From Candidatus Tectomicrobia bacterium (lineage in GTDB: Bacteria; UBA8248), in NCBI GenBank assembly GCA_016192135.1, contig JACPUR010000027.1, forward strand, positions 1-40,141: DNA of 40,141 nt, in the 5' to 3' direction. The notes under the pieces were generated by a model, which did not search any database, was not told where the DNA came from, and was given only the letters and a program-made list of their open reading frames with translations. The position numbers were made by a program, and so were the translations under genes. Shown here in pieces: positions 3,588 through 17,661 of this stretch. The number at the start of each line of letters is the position of its first letter. Positions within the stretch are counted from its first letter, which is position 1.

Positions 3588-3615
3588 GTAGGGGCGGTTC
3601 GCGAACCGCCCCTAC
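3588..3615. repeat. 28-bp palindrome, arm GGTT, centre CGCG
   Basis: Perfect inverted repeat: GTAGGGGC, then GGTT-CGCG-AACC, then GCCCCTAC. It lies between the dehydrogenase and the PrpF-like gene. The same core recurs at 24977, 30880 and 33743. A degenerate copy follows at 3638-3662. Confidence 0.9.
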
Positions 3616-8502: not shown

Positions 8503-8736
8503 ATGAGCAGACAAGCAAAGAATCAATCCAGCCTCTCTAGGGCCGCCAGAGTGCATGTAATCGCCCACCAAGAAGGCTGGGCCATCAAGCAAGAGGGGCA
8601 ATCCAGGGCATCTAAAATCTGCAGCACCAAGGAAGCGGCCGTAAGAAATGCCTCTCAAGTTGCCGTGAAAGGCCAAGACGTCGTTGTTCATAAGAAAGAC
8701 GGTTCCATCCAGAGCTGGAAACGAATTGTCAAATGA
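8503..8736 (+). CDS. DUF2188-family small protein
   Basis: 77 aa. The C-terminal 60 residues match the DUF2188 pattern: HVIAHQEGWAIKQEGQSRAS, then STKEAAVRNASQVA, then VVVHKKDGSIQSWKRI. DUF2188 proteins are small basic domains of unknown biochemical function. AAAGGA at 8490-8495 places a ribosome site 7 nt before ATG. The stop overlaps the start of the next gene (ATGA at 8733-8736), so the two are translationally coupled. Base composition is visibly lower in GC than the flanks, which points to horizontal gain. It could be a regulator, an antitoxin-like partner or an accessory of the TIR-like protein; none of these is shown by sequence. Confidence 0.8.
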   Translation: MSRQAKNQSSLSRAARVHVIAHQEGWAIKQEGQSRASKICSTKEAAVRNASQVAVKGQDVVVHKKDGSIQSWKRIVK

Positions 8737-9362
8737 CCCAAAAGGGGCAATTTGGCAAAAACGTCTTCATCAATTGCCCCTTCGATGATGATTACATTCC
8801 CTTGCTGCGGCCGCTACTTTTCACCGTCCTGTATTGCGGGCTTACGCCGCGAATCACCTCGGAGAGTTTTGATTCAGGCGAAACGCGTCTCAACAGCATA
8901 TGCAAGCTGATATCGAACTCAAAGTTCAGCATACATGATCTGTCCCGCCTGAGAGCCCGGAAAGCCAAAGAATTTCACCGGATGAATATGCCGTTTGAAT
9001 TGGGAGTCGATTTGGGGTGCCGCAGATTTGGCAATGGAGCCTTACGCCGGAAGCGCTTTCTGATTTTGGATGAGCATAGGTATAGATATCAAAAAGCGCT
9101 TTCCGATATTTCTGGCTCAGATATCAAGCACCACACCAAAAATCCGCGGAATATCGTCCGGCAGGCCAGGAACTGGTTTGTCGAGAACGGACTGGCGGGA
9201 ACCCCAAGTGGACAAGCCATCTGGCTCGAATTCAATGAATTTATGGCCGATTTCTATGAAAAACGGCGGAGAGATGGATATAGCAGAAAGGAGCTTCAGA
9301 TAATGCCGATACCTGAGCTCATCTCCTTCATGCGAAGGTGGATAGCTTCACACGATTTGTAG
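8733..9362 (+). CDS. TIR / nucleoside deoxyribosyltransferase-like protein, putative defence effector
   Basis: 209 aa, not recognised as a named family. The N-terminal ~130 residues show an alternating alpha/beta order like TIR and nucleoside 2-deoxyribosyltransferase folds: strand NVFINCPFDDDY (10-21), helix PLLRPLLFTVLYCG, strand PRITSE, helix RLNSICKLISNSKF, strand SIHDLSR. A helix with NMPFELGVDLG follows; Glu89 sits where the catalytic Glu of those NAD- or nucleoside-cleaving enzymes is expected. Next come strand KRFLILD and a conserved-looking YRYQKALSDISGSDIKHH. The C-terminus is helical and polar. It is coupled to the DUF2188 gene and lies in a lower-GC island (25 G/C in 8881-8940, against 41 in 10561-10620). 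An NADase-type anti-phage effector is an inference; a housekeeping hydrolase is possible. Confidence 0.7.
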   Translation: MTQKGQFGKNVFINCPFDDDYIPLLRPLLFTVLYCGLTPRITSESFDSGETRLNSICKLISNSKFSIHDLSRLRARKAKEFHRMNMPFELGVDLGCRRFGNGALRRKRFLILDEHRYRYQKALSDISGSDIKHHTKNPRNIVRQARNWFVENGLAGTPSGQAIWLEFNEFMADFYEKRRRDGYSRKELQIMPIPELISFMRRWIASHDL

Positions 9363-9397: not shown

Positions 9398-11341
9398 ATG
9401 CCCACCCCCGTCATCTGGCGCCCCACCGAGGACTTCCTTCGGAACTCGAACGTCGCCCGCTTCATGCAAAAGCACGGGCTGAAGAGCTACTCCGAGCTTC
9501 TGGAGTGGTCGGTGGCGGACATCCGCCGCTTCTGGAGGCTCATCCTCGAGGACATGGGGGTGGAGTGGTACCGCCCCTACGACGAGGTGCTCGACCTGAG
9601 CCGGGGTTTCGAGTGGGCGCGCTGGTTCGTCGGTGGAGAATTAAACGTCATCCACAACTGCATCGACCGCCACCTCAGGGACGGGAAGGGAGGCCGGACG
9701 GTCCTCGTCTGGGAGGGGGACGGGGGGGAGGTGCGGCGCTTCACCTACGCGGAACTCGCCGCCGAGGTCGCGCGCCTGGCGGGGGCGATGCGGGCGATGG
9801 GGATGAGGCCCGGGGACGCGGCGGGCATCTTCATGCCCATGCTGCCCGAAACCGTCTTCGCCTTCTTCGCCTGCCTCAAGATCGGGGCCGCCGCCGTCCC
9901 CATCTTCTCGGGCTTCGGGCCCGAGGCGGTGGCCGAGCGGCTGGCCCACGCCGAGGCGCGGCTCGTCTTCACGGCGGACGGGGGCATGCGCCGGGGAAAG
10001 GAGGTCCCCGTCAAGCCTCTGCTGGATCAGGCCCTCAACCTGGGAACGAGGGTGGAGAAGGTTGTCGTCCTCGGGCGCACGGCCGCTGAAGTTCCCATGA
10101 AAGCCGGGCGGGACGTGATGTGGGAGGAGTTCGTGGCGGGGCAGCCCGCCGAGGCCCCGACGGAGCGCCTGCCCGCCGAGGCGCGGGCCATCATCATCTA
10201 CACCTCGGGGACGACCGGGAAGCCCAAGGGCACGGTGCACACCCACGCGGGCCTCCTCGTGACCACGGCCAAGGAGCTGCGCTACTGCATCGACCTGCGC
10301 GAGGGGGACACCGTCTTCTGGGTGACCGACATCGGCTGGATGATGGGCCCCTGGGAGATGGTGGGGGTGCAATTCGGGGGCGGCACCTACCTCATCTATG
10401 AGGGCGCCCCCAACTGGCCCGGCCCGGACCGGCTCTGGAAGCTCGTCGCGGATCATAAAGTCACCCAGCTCGGCATCTCCCCCACCGCCATCCGGCTCCT
10501 CATCAGCGCCGGGGAGGCGTGGGTCCGCAAGCATGACCTCACGAGCCTCCGCCTCCTGGGCTCGACCGGGGAGCCCTGGGACCCCGCCTCCTACATGTGG
10601 TTCTTCGAGAAGGTGGGGGGCGGGAGGTGCCCCATCATGAACATCTCGGGGGGCACCGAGCTGTGCGGCTGCCTCCTCCAGCCCTACCCCGTCCAGGAGC
10701 TCACCCCCTGCTCCCTGGGCGGGCCCGCCCTGGGGGTGGACACCGACGTCTTCGACGAGGAGGGCCGCCCCGTGCGGGACCAGATCGGCCACCTCGTCTG
10801 CAAGCAGCCCGTGCCCTCCATGACCAAGGGCTTCTTGAAGGAGGACGACCGCTACATCGAGACCTACTTCTCCCGCTGGCCGGGGGTCTGGTACCACGGG
10901 GACTGGGCGAAGCGCGACGCGGCGGGCCAGTGGTACCTCTTCGGGCGCTCGGACGACACCATCAACGTGGCCGGGAAGCGCGTGGGCCCGGCCGAGGTCG
11001 AGGCGGAGCTGATCAAGCACCCGGCCGTCGTGGAGGCCGCCGTCATCGGCGCCCCCCACCCCATCAAGGGAGAGTGCCTCGCCTGCTTCGTGGTGCTGCG
11101 GGAGGGAACGGCGCCCACCGACGCCCTGCGGGAGGCGCTCAAGGACCAGACGGTGGCCTACCTGGGGAAGAGCCTTCGGCCCGACGAGGTCAAGTTCGTG
11201 AAAGCGCTGCCCAAGACGCGCTCGGCCAAGATCGTGCGGGGGGCCATCAAGAAAGTGTATCTCGGCGAGGACATCTCCCGGATCGACACCAGCTCTATCG
11301 AGGTGCCCGAGCACCTCGCGGCGATCCGGGAGGCGCTGTAG
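9398..11341 (+). CDS. AMP-forming acyl-CoA synthetase (ANL superfamily)
   Basis: 647 aa, the size of acetyl-/propionyl-CoA synthetase-like enzymes; activates a carboxylic acid with ATP and CoA. An N-terminal ACAS-type region (about 35-95) is followed by the AMP-binding domain with the P-loop YTSGTTGKPKG at residues 268-278. Other motifs are WVTDIGWMMGPWE, the adenine-binding NISGGTELCG and YHGDWAKRD. The hinge and C-terminal domain carry GRSDDTINVAGKRVGPAEVE and the catalytic Lys611 in TRSAKIVRGAIK. The start at 9398 follows AACGAGGA. Its C-terminus is paralogous to the decayed tail at 8222-8389. With the MBL hydrolase, TRAP permease and catabolic run upstream, it may convert a released acid to its CoA ester (inference). 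Confidence 0.92.
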   Translation: MPTPVIWRPTEDFLRNSNVARFMQKHGLKSYSELLEWSVADIRRFWRLILEDMGVEWYRPYDEVLDLSRGFEWARWFVGGELNVIHNCIDRHLRDGKGGRTVLVWEGDGGEVRRFTYAELAAEVARLAGAMRAMGMRPGDAAGIFMPMLPETVFAFFACLKIGAAAVPIFSGFGPEAVAERLAHAEARLVFTADGGMRRGKEVPVKPLLDQALNLGTRVEKVVVLGRTAAEVPMKAGRDVMWEEFVAGQPAEAPTERLPAEARAIIIYTSGTTGKPKGTVHTHAGLLVTTAKELRYCIDLREGDTVFWVTDIGWMMGPWEMVGVQFGGGTYLIYEGAPNWPGPDRLWKLVADHKVTQLGISPTAIRLLISAGEAWVRKHDLTSLRLLGSTGEPWDPASYMWFFEKVGGGRCPIMNISGGTELCGCLLQPYPVQELTPCSLGGPALGVDTDVFDEEGRPVRDQIGHLVCKQPVPSMTKGFLKEDDRYIETYFSRWPGVWYHGDWAKRDAAGQWYLFGRSDDTINVAGKRVGPAEVEAELIKHPAVVEAAVIGAPHPIKGECLACFVVLREGTAPTDALREALKDQTVAYLGKSLRPDEVKFVKALPKTRSAKIVRGAIKKVYLGEDISRIDTSSIEVPEHLAAIREAL

Positions 11342-11625: not shown

Positions 11626-12207
11626 TTAGAACAATCTCCGCAGCGAAAGCTGGAAGGGCACGCCGTGGTCCGCGCAGGCCCGCTGGAGGTGGCCGTTGCC
11701 CAGCAGGTGCATGAGGGGCTGGTCGACCTCCCCAATGCGCAGGAGGCCCCCCTGGATCTGGGCGGCCCAGTCCTCCTTGAGCTTCTCCGCGTCCCCGGAG
11801 GTGATGCGCCACCGGCACTCCTCGGCCCGGCAGTAGCAGTCGAAGGTCTCCTCGGGCTTCATGTAGAGGGTCGCGTAGTCCACCGTCAGCTCCGCGCCGG
11901 ACTCGATGTCCCGGACCGCCACCTCGAAGCCGTAGTGCGTCGCCATGCAGTTGGGGCTGCAGGAGTGGTTCATGAAGCGCGCCAGGTCCCAGAGCAGGAT
12001 GTGGTTCCCCTCCGGGGTGCGGTAGGTGTAGCGCGCGAGGGGCTCCCCGTAGATCTCGGGCATGCTCTCGACCTGCTCGGGGGTGAGGATCTGGTCCAGC
12101 GGGTCGTACACCCAGGTGATGGTCCCCTGGGGGATCAGGCTCGTGGCGAAGACGCCGTAGCCGATCTCCGGGCTGATGAACTGGAGCACCGTATCCGGAT
12201 GGAGCAC
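11626..12207 (-). CDS. SET-domain protein (second of a tandem pair)
   Basis: 193 aa SET-domain protein, normally a SAM-dependent lysine methyltransferase fold. Start GTG at 12207, preceded by GGGAGGGAG. SET-N motif GYGVFAT at 16-22; the pseudoknot segment RFMNHSCSPNC has Asn80-Cys83; catalytic Tyr111 lies in ELTVDYATL. A post-SET-like zinc knuckle CYCRAEEC (Cys124, Cys126, Cys131) can join Cys83. The remaining 60 residues are unique. It lies 24 nt after the other SET gene and the two align with all key residues at the same numbers, so they are tandem paralogues. The substrate is unknown; bacterial SET proteins can modify ribosomal or nucleoid proteins. The stop is followed by the palindrome cluster. 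Confidence 0.88.
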   Translation of the reverse strand: MLHPDTVLQFISPEIGYGVFATSLIPQGTITWVYDPLDQILTPEQVESMPEIYGEPLARYTYRTPEGNHILLWDLARFMNHSCSPNCMATHYGFEVAVRDIESGAELTVDYATLYMKPEETFDCYCRAEECRWRITSGDAEKLKEDWAAQIQGGLLRIGEVDQPLMHLLGNGHLQRACADHGVPFQLSLRRLF

Positions 12208-12231
12208 CGCGCTCCCTCCCGTCCGGGCCGA

Positions 12232-12885
12232 TCAGGCCGAGGCGGGGTGGTTCCGCGGCGCGGGAGCCGCCGGAGAGGAACCGTTCCCCTCCGCCCACAC
12301 CGCCTTCGAGGGCACGCAAAAGTCCGCCGGGCGGGGCAATGGCGCCCGGCCCGCCAGCATGTCGCTCAGGAGCCGGGCTTCCCGGAGGAACGGCACGAGC
12401 GGCTGGGGGAGCCGGGGCGCCAGGGCGAAGGCCTCGCGGACGCGGGCCTCCCACGCGTCCCCCAGCCGGAGCACGTCGTCCGAGCGGACGACGCCCCGGC
12501 AGCCCGGGGCGCCGCACCGGCACTCCAGTTCGGCGATGATGTTCAGCATCCCGTAGTCGTCGGTGATCTGCTCGCCGGGGAGGATGTCCCGGACGGCGAT
12601 CTCCATCCCCTCGGTCACGCTGAGGGTGGCGGGGTCGCAGGAGTGGTTCACGAAGCGGCCGAAGTCCCAGCAGAGGACGGCGTCCCCCCGGGAGGTCATG
12701 TAGGAGTAGGTCTGGATCATCTCGGTGTAGGCCGGGGGCAGCTCCCGCCTGCGGGCCGGGGTGAGGACGTGGTCGAGGTGGCAGAGGCCCCACGTGATCG
12801 TCCCCTTGGGAATCCGCCGGGTGGCGAAGACCCCGTGGCCGACCTCGGGGCTGACGAAGCGCAGCGCCGTATCGGGGTGGATCAC
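12232..12885 (-). CDS. SET-domain protein (first of a tandem pair)
   Basis: 217 aa SET-domain protein. Start GTG at 12885 with AGGAG 6 nt before it. SET-N motif GHGVFATRRIPKGTITW at 16-32, RFVNHSCDP with Asn80-Cys83, catalytic Tyr111 in QITDDYG, and a post-SET knuckle ECRCGAPGC with Cys122, Cys124 and Cys129. All positions match those in the downstream paralogue. The C-terminal 45 residues are Pro/Ala-rich and differ from the paralogue. The pair forms its own two-gene unit: 96 nt separate it from the Gfo/Idh/MocA gene upstream. A lysine methyltransferase role is family knowledge; targets are unknown. Confidence 0.88.
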   Translation of the reverse strand: MIHPDTALRFVSPEVGHGVFATRRIPKGTITWGLCHLDHVLTPARRRELPPAYTEMIQTYSYMTSRGDAVLCWDFGRFVNHSCDPATLSVTEGMEIAVRDILPGEQITDDYGMLNIIAELECRCGAPGCRGVVRSDDVLRLGDAWEARVREAFALAPRLPQPLVPFLREARLLSDMLAGRAPLPRPADFCVPSKAVWAEGNGSSPAAPAPRNHPASA

Positions 12886-12981: not shown

Positions 12982-14007
12982 CTATCCGGGCCGCGCGTCC
13001 ACATAAAGTTTTTCGATCAGGGCCACCACCGCCAGCGCCTCCTCGGGCCGGACGGCCGGGGGCCGACCCACGCGGAAGGCCCCGAGGAAGTCCCGGTGGT
13101 TGCGGTACATGGAGTGGAGCTTGGGGGGGAGCTCCTCCGGCGGCGGGGGCTCGGCGGGCGGGGCCGGGAGGGGCGCCTTGCCCTTGTGCTCCCAGCGGAC
13201 GACCCCTTTCCCCTCGGCGATGGTGCAGGTGCCCTCCGAGCCGTAGAGGGTGAGGGTCTCGGGGAAGCCGGGGTAGGCCACGGTCGAGGCGGTGAGTGTG
13301 GCCAGCGCGCCGCACTCGAGCTCCAGCAGGGCGGCCGCCACGTCCTCCTCCTGATAGCCCTCCCGGACCGTGCCGATCGCCCCCCGGACCTCCGCCACCG
13401 GCCCCAGGCACCACATGAGCAGGTCGATGTAGTGGATGCCCTGGTTCATCAGCACCCCGCCCCCCGACTCCGCCCGGGAGGCCCGCCAGGGGGCCTGGAG
13501 GAAGTAGTTCTCGTCCCGGTAGTAGTTGATCGACACCTCGGCCAGGAACACCCGCCCCAGCAGCCCGGCGTCCAGCGCCGCCTTGAGCTGCATCGCTCCC
13601 GGGTCGAAGCGCTTCTGCGAGACGACGGAGAGGGCCACCCCGGCCTCCCGGCAGCGGCCGATTACCTCCCGGCCTGAGGCCGTGTCGTTCGCCAGGGGCT
13701 TCTCCAGGAGGACGTGCTTGCCCGCCCGGGCCGCCATCAGGGCCATGGGCGCGTGGAGGAAGGAGGGCGCCGCCACCAGCACGGCCCGGACCCCGGGATC
13801 GGCCACGGCGTCCTCCGCCGAGGCGGCCGGCCGGCAGCCGAACCGCCGGCAGACCTCGTCGCGCCGCGCCGGGTCGGAGTCGTAGGCGCAGCGAAGCTCC
13901 GCCCCCTCCAGGCAGGAGATCACCTCGGCGTGGCGGCCCCCCATCAGGCCGCAGCCGAGGACGGCGTAGCCGGCGGGTTCGGGGGAGGAAACGGGCATGC
14001 GGCTCAT
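12982..14007 (-). CDS. Gfo/Idh/MocA-family oxidoreductase
   Basis: 341 aa NAD(P)-dependent sugar dehydrogenase-type enzyme. N-terminal Rossmann motif VLGCGLMGGRHAE at about residues 16-28, the family EKPLANDT segment (catalytic Lys), and a C-terminal alpha/beta domain with GGGVLMNQGIHYIDLLMWCLG and ASTVAYPGFPETL. The start ATG at 14007 lies 1 nt after the stop of the LAB_N gene, so it is the last gene of the envelope-glycan operon. Paired with the DegT/StrS aminotransferase at the operon start, it could oxidise a nucleotide sugar at C3 for amination, as GnnA does with GnnB or the WlbA-type enzymes (inference). Other sugar or inositol substrates are equally possible. Confidence 0.87.
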   Translation of the reverse strand: MSRMPVSSPEPAGYAVLGCGLMGGRHAEVISCLEGAELRCAYDSDPARRDEVCRRFGCRPAASAEDAVADPGVRAVLVAAPSFLHAPMALMAARAGKHVLLEKPLANDTASGREVIGRCREAGVALSVVSQKRFDPGAMQLKAALDAGLLGRVFLAEVSINYYRDENYFLQAPWRASRAESGGGVLMNQGIHYIDLLMWCLGPVAEVRGAIGTVREGYQEEDVAAALLELECGALATLTASTVAYPGFPETLTLYGSEGTCTIAEGKGVVRWEHKGKAPLPAPPAEPPPPEELPPKLHSMYRNHRDFLGAFRVGRPPAVRPEEALAVVALIEKLYVDARPG

Positions 14008-14008
14008 C

Positions 14009-14311
14009 CTAGGCGTGGGTGGGACCGGAGGGGAGGTTTCCGCGCTTCTCCTTGGCGATGAGCATGAGGTTCCGGATGTAGGGGATGAAATTGGGGAGAT
14101 AGGCCAGCACGCCGATGATGCTCCGGCGCTGGAAGAAGTAGATGAGCAGGATGATCGAGCCCGCCAGGCTCAGATACCAGAAGACGACGGGCACCTCGCT
14201 CCTCCCCACCCGCTCGCTGTGAATCCATTGGATGATGAAGCGGCTGCCGAAGCACAGGTTCCCCATGAGGCCGAACACTTCCCAAGGACCGAAGTCGAAA
14301 CCCAGGAACAT
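14009..14311 (-). CDS. Lipid A biosynthesis N-terminal (LAB_N) domain membrane protein
   Basis: 100 aa, three hydrophobic helices. It matches the LAB_N domain: FGLMGNLCFGSRFIIQWIHSER, then VPVVFWYLSLAGSIILLIYF, then PNFIPYIRNLMLIAKEKR. This domain occurs as an N-terminal extension of some LpxB proteins and as a stand-alone protein next to ArnC/ArnT-like glycosyltransferases. ATG at 14311 follows GGGAGAG. A 50-nt gap separates it from the GT2 gene upstream and 1 nt from the Gfo/Idh/MocA gene downstream. It is probably part of a lipid-linked sugar transfer system in the inner membrane (inference from domain and context). Confidence 0.88.
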   Translation of the reverse strand: MFLGFDFGPWEVFGLMGNLCFGSRFIIQWIHSERVGRSEVPVVFWYLSLAGSIILLIYFFQRRSIIGVLAYLPNFIPYIRNLMLIAKEKRGNLPSGPTHA

Positions 14312-14361
14312 CGCTCTCTCCCAAGGTGCCCCCCCTGGTCCGTGGAGAGAGCGGACGCTCC

Positions 14362-15081
14362 TCACCCCGGGGGGGGCGGAATGTGCCTCCGTTGATACCA
14401 AAGGACGGCCAGCGTGTCGACGAGTCCGACGAACACGCGGTTCCCGAAGCCGTACTTGGACACCCCGGCCTTCCGGGGGCGGTCGGCCACCTCGATCTGG
14501 CGCACCTCCCATCCGTGGGTCTGGAGGAGGGTCGGGAGGAAGCGGTGCAGTCCCCGGAAGGGGATGAGCTGGGCCAGGGCCTTCCGGCGGAAGACCCGGT
14601 AGGTGCACCCCGCGTCCAGGATGCCGTCCTTGAGCATCCAGTTCCGGAAGCCGTTGGCGGCCCAGGTGGAGAACTGCTTGAGGCGGGTGTCGGCCCGCTT
14701 GGGCCGGACGCCGCAAACCGCCCCGGCCTCCCCGAGGGCCTCGATGAGGCGGGGGAGATCCGCCGGGTCGTTCTGGAGATCGGCGTCCATGGTGGCGACG
14801 ATCTCGCCCCGGGCGGCGGCGAAGCCACTGAGCTGGGCGGCGCTCTCCCCCAGGTTGCGGGGGTGCTCGACGACCCGGATGCCCGGGTTGTCCCTCTCCA
14901 ACTGCCGCAGCCTGGCCAGGGTTCCGTCCGTCGAGGCGTCGTTCACGAAGACGACTTCCCACTCCCGGCCGATGCCCTCGAGCACGGGACGCAGCTCGGC
15001 CCAGAGGGCCTCCACGTTCCCTTCCTCGTTGTGGCAGGGAATGACCACGCTGAGCGAGCCGCGCGGTTCGAGTCCCTTCAT
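14362..15081 (-). CDS. Family 2 glycosyltransferase, polyprenyl-phosphate sugar transferase type
   Basis: 239 aa GT2 enzyme similar to dolichyl-phosphate mannose synthase and the catalytic part of ArnC. GT-A fold motifs: SVVIPCHNEEGNVEAL at the N-terminus, VNDASTDGT, and the metal-binding DADLQNDP (DxD-type) near residue 97. An RNWMLKDGILDAGCTYRVFRR segment is also family-typical. The two C-terminal membrane helices of ArnC are absent; the neighbouring LAB_N protein may supply the membrane part. ATG at 15081 overlaps the stop of the GT39 gene by 4 nt (ATGA), so it is translationally coupled. Expected product: sugar on undecaprenyl phosphate for the GT39 enzyme (inference). Confidence 0.88.
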   Translation of the reverse strand: MKGLEPRGSLSVVIPCHNEEGNVEALWAELRPVLEGIGREWEVVFVNDASTDGTLARLRQLERDNPGIRVVEHPRNLGESAAQLSGFAAARGEIVATMDADLQNDPADLPRLIEALGEAGAVCGVRPKRADTRLKQFSTWAANGFRNWMLKDGILDAGCTYRVFRRKALAQLIPFRGLHRFLPTLLQTHGWEVRQIEVADRPRKAGVSKYGFGNRVFVGLVDTLAVLWYQRRHIPPPPG

Positions 15082-16505
15082 GGCTTTTTTGCGCCCCCAC
15101 CGGGAGGAATGGGGGCCGCCGGCTTCTCGGGCGCCTGGGACTGCGCCTCGGCCCTGTCCGCCTGGCGGTCCAGGGACTTCCACTCCTCGAAGGCGCCGAA
15201 GTAGAGGAGCCCCAGGCAGCCCGCGGCCGCCACCGCCCCCAGCCACGCCTCCCGCCGCCGCCTGGCCATCCATCCGCGGCCGGTGAGCACAAGCGCGCCC
15301 ACCCCTCCCAGCACGCTCAGCCCGGCGAGCCACGACGGCGCGATGAACAGCGTGAAGCCCAGCCCCAAGAGCGTCCCCGCGGCCAGGAGGACCAGCAGGA
15401 CGGCCTGGGAGGACGTCAGGAATTTCTCCCCAAGGCTTCCGGGCGGATCATCGATGTGGGCCAGCAGGGCGTCCGCCGCCATCAGCCCCAGCAGGGGCAG
15501 GACCGGGAGCAGGTAGTGGGGCTGCTTGGCCGGGAGGACGGAGAAAAAGACGAGGACTACGACAAAGGTCCAGACGACGAAGGCCCATCCCCCCCTCCCG
15601 CGCCAGCGCCCCGCCCGCCAGACGTGCCTGGCGGTGAGGGGCAGCAGGACGCTCACCGGGATGGCGATGTCCCAAATCCGGTAGAGGTAGTACCAGAACG
15701 CGCGGAAGTGCCGGCCCGTATGGCCCACCACCTCGACGCCCACCGGCTGGAGGCCCTCCAGGAGGGCCCAGTGGATTGCCTCCTTGGGCATCTGGACGAA
15801 GACCAGGAGATACCACGAGCCCCCCGCCAGGGCGGCCGCGGCCAGCCACATCAGCACCTCCCGCCGGAAGACCCTACCCCAGCCCCGGCGGAGCGTCAGG
15901 GCCAGGGCGGCGGGGATCCCCACCACCGGGAGCAGGGTGGTGCCCTTGGCCAGCGCCGCCAGCGCCAGCGAGAGGCCGAACGCCGGGAGAAGGTTCCTGC
16001 GCCGGCCATGCCAGAGCCGCTCGAATAGGTATAAGGCGGCCACGCACGCCGCGGAAAAGGCCATGTCGGGCGAGCCCCTCCGGGCCATGATGAGGAAGAG
16101 CGCCATCATCCCCGTCAGGAGCCCCGCCAGGCCCCCCAGGGCCGGGCCGCCCAGCGCCGTCCCCCAGGCAACGGTGACAGCCAGCATGACCATCGCTCCG
16201 ATGGCCGAGGGCACCCGGGCGCTCCACCAGTCCGCCTCCCCGCGGATGCGGGCCGAAATCGCGCCGATCCAATGGTAGAGGGGGGGCTTCGAGAGGAAGG
16301 GCTTGCCGTCCACCCGGGGGACGAGCCAATCCCCCGTCCGCGCCATCGTTTGGATGATCTCCCGGCTGCGCGCCTCGACGGGAAGCTTCGCGGCCCCGCC
16401 GCCCAGGTTGATCCAGACGAGGAGGACGGGGATGGCGAGAAGCGCCAGCGGAATCCAGGCCGGGACGGGGCGGGCGGGTGCGCCGGGAGCCGGGCCTCCG
16501 GCCAT
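15078..16505 (-). CDS. GT39-family (ArnT/PMT-like) membrane glycosyltransferase
   Basis: 475 aa polytopic membrane protein with about ten or more hydrophobic segments. The first periplasmic loop has VEARSREIIQTMARTGDWLVPRV and GKPFLSKPPLYHW, the ArnT/PMT signature; the usual Asp-Glu of the active site is Val-Glu here. Such enzymes use polyprenyl-phosphate sugars as donors and modify lipid A or proteins on the outer face of the inner membrane. It overlaps the GT2 gene by 4 nt and follows the aminotransferase gene by 1 nt. The C-terminal ~35 residues are charged and Pro-rich, probably cytoplasmic. The donor sugar is unknown. Confidence 0.87.
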   Translation of the reverse strand: MAGGPAPGAPARPVPAWIPLALLAIPVLLVWINLGGGAAKLPVEARSREIIQTMARTGDWLVPRVDGKPFLSKPPLYHWIGAISARIRGEADWWSARVPSAIGAMVMLAVTVAWGTALGGPALGGLAGLLTGMMALFLIMARRGSPDMAFSAACVAALYLFERLWHGRRRNLLPAFGLSLALAALAKGTTLLPVVGIPAALALTLRRGWGRVFRREVLMWLAAAALAGGSWYLLVFVQMPKEAIHWALLEGLQPVGVEVVGHTGRHFRAFWYYLYRIWDIAIPVSVLLPLTARHVWRAGRWRGRGGWAFVVWTFVVVLVFFSVLPAKQPHYLLPVLPLLGLMAADALLAHIDDPPGSLGEKFLTSSQAVLLVLLAAGTLLGLGFTLFIAPSWLAGLSVLGGVGALVLTGRGWMARRRREAWLGAVAAAGCLGLLYFGAFEEWKSLDRQADRAEAQSQAPEKPAAPIPPGGGAKKP

Positions 16506-16506
16506 C

Positions 16507-17661
16507 TCAGTCGGTTCGGCCGCGGCCGGCCGCCGCCGAGGCGGCGCGGGAGCCCGCCCCGAAGAAGGCGGAAACCTGCTCGATCACGTAAGCGGCCTGC
16601 GTCTCGGTCAGGTGCGGGAAGATCGGCAGGGAGAGGATGGCGTCGCAGGCCGCCTCCGCCTCGGGGAAGGCGCCCCGGGCGTATCCCAAAGAAGCGTAGG
16701 CCGGATGGAGGTGCACGGGGACGGGATAGTGCAACCCCGTCTGGACCCCGTTCTCCGCGAGGTGCTTGGCGAGCGCCTCGCGCCGGGCGGTGCGGATCAC
16801 GAACAGATGCCACACCGGCTCCGCGCCCCGGGGAGGCTCGGGAAGGACGACGTCCCCCACCCCCGCCAGCCCTTCGAGATACCACTGGGCCGCGCGTCGG
16901 CGCATGGCGTTCCACTCCTTCAGGCGGGGCAGCTTGGCCGAGAGCACGGCCGCCTGGATGGGATCGATCCGTTCGTTCACCCCCACCGTCTCGTGCGTGA
17001 ACTTCTCCAGGCGCCCGTGGTTCGAGAGCGCCCTCACCCGCGAGGCGAGCTCTTCCCGGTCGGTGGCGGCTGCGCCGCTGTCCCCGAACCCGCCCAGGCA
17101 CTTCGAGGGGTAGAAAGAGAAGCAGGCGGCCTCCCCCCAGGTGCCCACCCTTTTCCCGTCCAGCGAGGCCCCCTGCGCCTGGGCCACGTCCTCGGCGAGG
17201 ATGAGCCCCTTGCGGGCGGCGAGCGCGGAGATTTCCCGCAGGGGGGCGGGGAACCCGTAGAGGTGGACCGGCAGGAGCACTGCCGTCCGGGGCGTCACGG
17301 CGGCCTCCACGGCGGCGGCGGAAATCTGGTAGGTGCGGGGGTCGATGTCGCACAGGACGGGCTTGAACCCCGCCCTGACGATGGCCTCCACCGTGGGCAC
17401 GGCGGTGAGGGTGGTGGTGACGATCTCGGCGCCGGGAGGCAGCCCGAGCCCCTCGAAGACGAGCTGGAGGGCGGCGGTGCCGCTCTTCACCCCGACGGCG
17501 AACCGCTTCCCCTCCTCCTGGGCAAGGGCGGCCTCGAATTCCTTGACGAAATTGCCCCCGACGAACGAGGAGGAGGCGATGATGCGGGCGAGCGACTCAT
17601 CCACCCGCTGCTTCACGTCCAGGTATTGGGGGTGAAGATCGACGAAGGGGATTTTCATCAT
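16507..17661 (-). CDS. DegT/DnrJ/EryC1/StrS-family sugar aminotransferase
   Basis: 384 aa PLP-dependent nucleotide-sugar aminotransferase. N-terminal IPFVDLHPQYLDVK, SFVGGNFVKEFE and GVKSGTAALQL are family hallmarks; the PLP lysine is Lys187 in SFYPSKCLGGFGDSGA; NERIDPIQAAVL and GLHYPVPVHLHPAY follow. Closest by eye to WbpE/GnnB-like 3-aminotransferases rather than ArnB, but this needs a tree. Two adjacent ATGs (17661, 17658) are possible starts; no clear Shine-Dalgarno sequence lies before either. First gene of a five-gene minus-strand operon that probably makes and attaches an amino sugar to an envelope lipid or glycan. Divergent from the TSUP genes across 286 nt. Confidence 0.9.
   Translation of the reverse strand: MMKIPFVDLHPQYLDVKQRVDESLARIIASSSFVGGNFVKEFEAALAQEEGKRFAVGVKSGTAALQLVFEGLGLPPGAEIVTTTLTAVPTVEAIVRAGFKPVLCDIDPRTYQISAAAVEAAVTPRTAVLLPVHLYGFPAPLREISALAARKGLILAEDVAQAQGASLDGKRVGTWGEAACFSFYPSKCLGGFGDSGAAATDREELASRVRALSNHGRLEKFTHETVGVNERIDPIQAAVLSAKLPRLKEWNAMRRRAAQWYLEGLAGVGDVVLPEPPRGAEPVWHLFVIRTARREALAKHLAENGVQTGLHYPVPVHLHPAYASLGYARGAFPEAEAACDAILSLPIFPHLTETQAAYVIEQVSAFFGAGSRAASAAAGRGRTD

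Follow-up and report, generated by a model that had tools for sequence, protein, structure and literature searches.

Discussion of bacterial SET proteins mostly concerns lone genes or the weapons that pathogens use. A stretch of Candidatus Tectomicrobia DNA (40,141 nucleotides, contig JACPUR010000027.1 of assembly GCA_016192135.1, hereafter the window) carries two SET genes side by side, which raises the question of whether the two proteins work separately or as one unit. SET enzymes are not known to combine two unlike SET subunits each of which contributes to catalysis. The pair, found here as a two-gene unit in three phyla, is a small and defined test case for the substrates of native bacterial SET enzymes and for the sharing of one job by two SET subunits.

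The gene pair and its neighbourhood

Both genes lie on the minus strand as intact open reading frames. The upstream gene, SET A (12232–12885), encodes a SET/post-SET protein of 217 amino acids and the second, SET B (11626–12207), one of 193. Each begins with a GTG codon preceded by a purine-rich stretch, that of B (GGGAGGGAG) lying in the 24-nt spacer between the genes (12208–12231). The Pfam SET scores of the two proteins (48.5 and 53.7 bits) exceed the cut-off of 22.4, in agreement with the preliminary description, made from the sequence alone, of a tandem SET pair 24 nt apart. No SET genes besides A and B were found in this genome. Comparison between the three genomes of the genus gave dN/dS ratios of 0.39–0.43 for A and 0.30–0.44 for B; both genes are under purifying selection.

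BLASTP aligned residues 1–172 of A with residues 1–174 of B at 42% identity over 174 columns (E 2e-50). The NHSC motif (residues 80–83) and the catalytic Tyr111 occupy identical positions in both proteins, as had been noted beforehand; the CxCxxxxC motif, also described as matching, is offset by a 2-residue gap (residues 122–129 in A and 124–131 in B). The description of the C-termini as unrelated holds for the last ~45 residues of A and ~19 of B, the homology reaching to about residue 172.

A Gfo/Idh/MocA oxidoreductase gene (12982–14007, minus strand), present in 3/3 genomes of the genus, lies 96 nt before A. It is preceded by LAB_N, GT2, PMT_2 and DegT aminotransferase genes (14009–17661, minus strand), which form with it a conserved operon that ends beside the pair. 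The other flank is a convergent acetyl-/acyl-CoA ligase gene (9398–11341, plus strand). Among the 18 genomes of the phylum, A is present in three, all from the window's genus, and the pair is present in each of them, and thus in 2/2 of the other same-genus genomes. All three share one gene order (Gfo/Idh, A, B, convergent CoA ligase), with A–B gaps of 24–26 nt and no gene overlap. The DegT, PMT_2, GT2 and LAB_N genes ahead of Gfo/Idh are kept as well, although DegT is seen in two of the three genomes, the 6.8-kb L020 contig of the third stopping short of it. By name, the closest relatives of the pair belong to Candidatus Tectomicrobia MAGs.

In G005, a genome from another genus of the same family, the series DegT, PMT_2, GT2, LAB_N and Gfo/Idh runs up to the convergent ligase, the matches lying ~26 nt apart; this genome has no SET gene at the flank site and no Pfam SET match anywhere else. 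The pair was thus gained in, or lost outside, the window's genus at a precise site. We do not favour a function of the pair in the glycan/lipid A-type operon (DegT, PMT_2, GT2, LAB_N, Gfo/Idh): G005 has this block but not the pair, and the annotated flanks of the pair in other groups include no gene of the block.

Several minor features accompany the locus. The CoA ligase at the empty site of G005 consists of two tandem copies (L133, 2805–6687), and a second partial copy was also seen in L021. A 209-aa open reading frame of the window (8733–9362) has a G+C content of 0.58–0.61, against about 0.70, and gave no Pfam, NCBIfam, PADLOC or PHROGs match. Perfect palindromes with fixed ends (GTAGGGGCG...CGCCCCTAC) and inner arms that vary yet are always complementary occur in the window at 3588, 7109, 11436, 28060, 30880 and 33743, in L020 at 3919 and 3972 and in L021 at 6690 and 6742; they measure 28 nt (29 nt at L020 3919). 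The palindrome 9-mer has 22 copies in the window, where 0.49 would be expected, and several of them cluster directly downstream of SET B. These palindromes look like REP-type elements.

Distribution and descent of the two types

SET proteins had been called uncommon in bacteria, which is an overstatement. A Pfam SET match was found in 10 of 61 genomes, and in 7 of 43 when the window's family is left out. Peptide patterns drawn from the family alignment, run against 84,980 species genomes, returned 270 relatives of this one subfamily, and a review had by 2014 counted one to four SET genes in each of more than 500 bacterial genomes (PMC3980110). Among bacteria, SET genes are patchy without being rare; what stands out is the conserved pair of two types. 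Priestia megaterium, Hymenobacter, Paenibacillus and cyanobacteria provide examples of the subfamily (MIHPxTxLxFIS...IPKGTITW). Its members resemble A and B in their full length of ~190–220 aa, at about 37–52% identity, and in keeping His81 and Tyr111. They differ in being mostly single genes without zinc ligands (65/95 rows) and in showing no A/B differentiation.

Single genes and pairs were counted over 80 loci kept from the 270, together with genomes searched later. Most relatives in the 80 kept loci are single genes, so that the pair is no requirement of the family; 12 loci hold two or more SET copies, nine of them A–B pairs (two from Tectomicrobia, five alphaproteobacterial, two from Bacteroidota). 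The other three are two Paenibacillus pairs (L071, L096) and a four-copy Hydrococcus array (L091). These are adjacent genes of the same subfamily, but they are copies specific to their lineage, fall outside the clades of A and of B and have no zinc motif. In Hydrococcus rivularis the four copies stand in a row (L091, 4651–7135), one apparently broken by stops; this copy (L091_6605, internal stops) was excluded from trees and counts. Searches at the level of the order found pairs in 6/15 genomes of the alphaproteobacterial order and 3/4 of the Bacteroidota order. Altogether, A stands directly before B on the same strand in the 12 genomes found, three from Tectomicrobia, six alphaproteobacterial and three from Bacteroidota (G000–G002, G061–G065, G068, G066, G067, G078). 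Inside and outside Tectomicrobia, the carriers are known here as MAGs from the species-collection records.

In all nine pairs outside Tectomicrobia, the stop codon of A and the start codon of B overlap by 4 nt (ATGA), as read by letters in five pairs and by coordinates in four. Among the annotated loci the flanking genes differ: an ABC-F-type ATPase and GreA/GreB in L029, ALAD in L023, DUF3788 and UvrA in L024. Since these differ between groups, conservation extends to the pair but to no larger cluster.

The pair recurs in 2/2 same-genus genomes and in a further two phyla, which rules out an assembly artefact, a possibility raised beforehand in case the pair were absent from all relatives. A phage origin has little support: viral contigs gave no relatives when searched with B alone and one weak relative when searched with alignment A2, and there was one weak phage record. 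The pair had no PADLOC or PHROGs match that would indicate a defence system, and no title or abstract on an A–B pair was found in a literature search whose coverage lay mostly outside subscription journals.

Phylogenetic analysis separated the two types. In a tree of 95 rows, the A proteins of the pairs form one clade (support 100/98) and the B proteins another (99/88), with 10 rows each. An enlarged tree of 47 rows chosen from 100, which added G068, G078 and the solo A-type protein of G064 described below, gave an A clade of the 12 pair rows plus the solo protein (100/94) and a B clade of 12 rows (97/87), from a bootstrap that was not fully settled. Across phyla, A groups with A and B with B, which rules out a recent local duplication; the phylogeny proposed earlier to decide between such a duplication and two transfers points to neither, as the two types are separate, supported clades that span phyla. 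The pair therefore formed before its spread to three phyla. The sister status of A and B differs between the trees: both lie within one 30-row group with the zinc motif in the 95-row tree, and B leans weakly (81/72) to the group without it in the enlarged tree. The two types may stem from a single duplication or from two older lineages that came together. Alignments A5 and A6 hold 48 sequences chosen from the 95 rows.

Fold, putative metal site and substrate

AlphaFold2 models of the monomers reached a pLDDT of 90.3 for A and 89.8 for B. Their best structure matches are SET/post-SET histone enzymes, several of them with SAM or analogues bound: SAM-bound ASH1L for A (Z 11.8, rmsd 2.5 over 130 residues) and 5lsy, titled MMSET, for B (Z 10.2, rmsd 2.7 over 130 residues). 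Both models, together with their PDB matches, display a confident SET/post-SET fold, and the SAM-side motifs, with NHxC, and the catalytic tyrosine are intact in both sequences. A and B share with KMT2, ASH1L and SETD2 the SET and post-SET fold, the NHSC motif, the post-SET cysteines and the catalytic tyrosine. They differ from them in having no aromatic residue at positions 109 (the switch) and 113 and no targeting domains.

In other SET enzymes, the NHSC cysteine and the CxCxxxxC motif together can ligate zinc, and both are present in the sequences of A and B. The NHxC cysteine occurs in 30/95 rows, all of which keep two or more of the three cysteines of the post-SET motif and 26 of which have all three; none of the remaining 65 rows, without the NHxC cysteine, has more than one. 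The 30 rows form one side of a branch with support 100/98 in the 95-row tree. This all-or-none pattern supports the post-SET knuckle, recognised in the preliminary description, as a real, if still putative, metal site in A and B. The four exceptions among the 30 are alphaproteobacterial B proteins in which one post-SET cysteine has been lost (CxR). The loss affects 4/6 alphaproteobacterial B proteins and leaves the zinc ligands incomplete in 4/12 B overall; in these bacteria B could be under drift or have another architecture.

The preliminary description offered, beside a heterodimer, methylation of two sites on one target. In this second reading A and B would be two separate lysine methyltransferases, co-expressed and acting, with no complex, on two sites or to two methylation degrees of one target. 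Both proteins keep the catalytic tyrosine and the SAM-side NHSC, both folds match histone lysine methyltransferases, the linkage of the genes is conserved, and a 48-row family profile found MLL1 as its best match (E 3.4e-11), with MLL-type enzymes among the matches to 1e-8. The residues lining the expected lysine channel point the other way. In Set1 (PMC3585878), Y1052 is the switch residue, and the F1056A mutant is null, an aromatic residue being needed there. Position 109, two residues before the catalytic tyrosine, was equated with Y1052; it is aromatic in 0/100 rows, which have Asp, Asn, Cys, Val, Ser, Glu or Gly. Position 113, corresponding to F1056, is aromatic in 0/13 A and 0/12 B proteins, against 38/75 of the others. 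A and B thus do not have the canonical aromatic lysine channel, a feature that is not universal among SET lysine enzymes. Most human SET proteins are also without a conventional switch residue (PMC3874154), so that a non-aromatic position 109 weakens, and does not exclude, a lysine substrate. The alignment around positions 32–38 is ambiguous for the motif II tyrosine of lysine enzymes. Judged from these residues, lysine methylation by A or B cannot be assumed, and we regard two independent lysine methyltransferases as unlikely.

A comparable, equally doubtful reading takes A and B for small-molecule methyltransferases with a role in a metabolic pathway, like BurB (PDB 9l4t, 9l4v), which converts methionine into S-methylmethionine. 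BurB has been shown to act on methionine and belongs to the DMSP/malleicyprol pathway (PMC12542666). It is the best PDB sequence match of each single protein (E 2e-6 and 1.5e-8), and its structure scores (Z 10.7 for A and 9.1 for B) lie within about 1 Z unit of those of the histone enzymes. Like the pair, it is a small bacterial SET/post-SET protein with a non-aromatic switch (LTMDYAS), and its DYA is common to 12/12 B proteins. The position of Asn80, which is Asn in 99/100 family rows, is however Leu in the single BurB sequence (LLHSC), and this Leu is found in neither A nor B. BurB is also missing among the matches to 1e-8 of the 48-row profile, where MLL-type enzymes are present. Finally, the flanks of the pair differ between groups, and no burI/D/E-like DMSP-pathway candidate was found among the annotated flanking genes. 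One relative has a setting that fits small-molecule chemistry: on a plasmid of Streptomyces sp. SAT1 (L019, 3953–4564), a related SET gene stands between genes for a PGM1-type peptide ligase and a lysine 2,3-aminomutase, neighbours that suggest a natural-product role for some members of the family.

Probable coupling of the two proteins

The conserved adjacency and order of A and B, with the 4-nt overlap in 9/9 pairs outside Tectomicrobia, make joint working plausible, and functional coupling of the two is likely. We favour, with about an even chance of being right, the reading that they are a co-translated, functionally coupled pair, probably a heteromer, acting on one substrate through two differently specialised sites. 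A and B would be small bacterial SET/post-SET methyltransferases of two types that differentiated long ago; their genes would be inherited and transferred as a single two-gene unit and presumably yield both proteins from one message. They would then join as an A–B heteromer predicted to bind SAM and to methylate one cellular substrate. BurB, also a small bacterial SET enzyme, is reported as a tetramer (PMC12542666).

The type-specific residues are the main pointer to complementary active sites; they are a hint and no proof of a complex. First, among the 100 rows, every A protein (13/13) has Cys at position 35, where all B proteins (12/12) and 74/75 of the other sequences have Asp. Secondly, position 112, next to the catalytic tyrosine, is Ala in 12/12 B and Gly in 11/13 A and 71/75 others. 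Thirdly, Asn at position 115, kept by 13/13 A and by 73/75 others, occurs in 0/12 B. His81 and Tyr111 are present in 100/100 rows. Each type has thus left the family pattern at positions of its own, in keeping with a division of labour: A would have exchanged Asp35 for Cys, and B would have replaced Gly112...Asn115 after the catalytic tyrosine. That one subunit would be the enzyme and the other a weakly active, regulatory partner is quite improbable: losses of family-conserved residues in both types, at different places, and the incomplete zinc ligands of some B proteins could be read in this way, whereas the retention of His81 and Tyr111 in every A and B row and the purifying selection on both genes argue against it.

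A stronger form of the favoured coupling would be an obligate heteromeric SET enzyme with complementary sites, neither subunit fully working alone, encoded by a module that moves between phyla and directed at a non-lysine or new substrate; we consider this improbable, if conceivable. Several observations weigh against the heteromer: the cysteines lost from most alphaproteobacterial B proteins, the separation of the genes without overlap in Tectomicrobia, the prevalence of single genes among the 80 loci, and a solo A-type gene in G064 (L120, 4998–5651), alongside that genome's own pair. This solo gene indicates that A can probably function with no B gene beside it. The solo gene adjoins an ABC transporter gene with, by eye, a C-terminal cyclic-nucleotide-binding-like region, and an ABC transporter gene of similar appearance, again by eye, lies upstream of the pair in L127.
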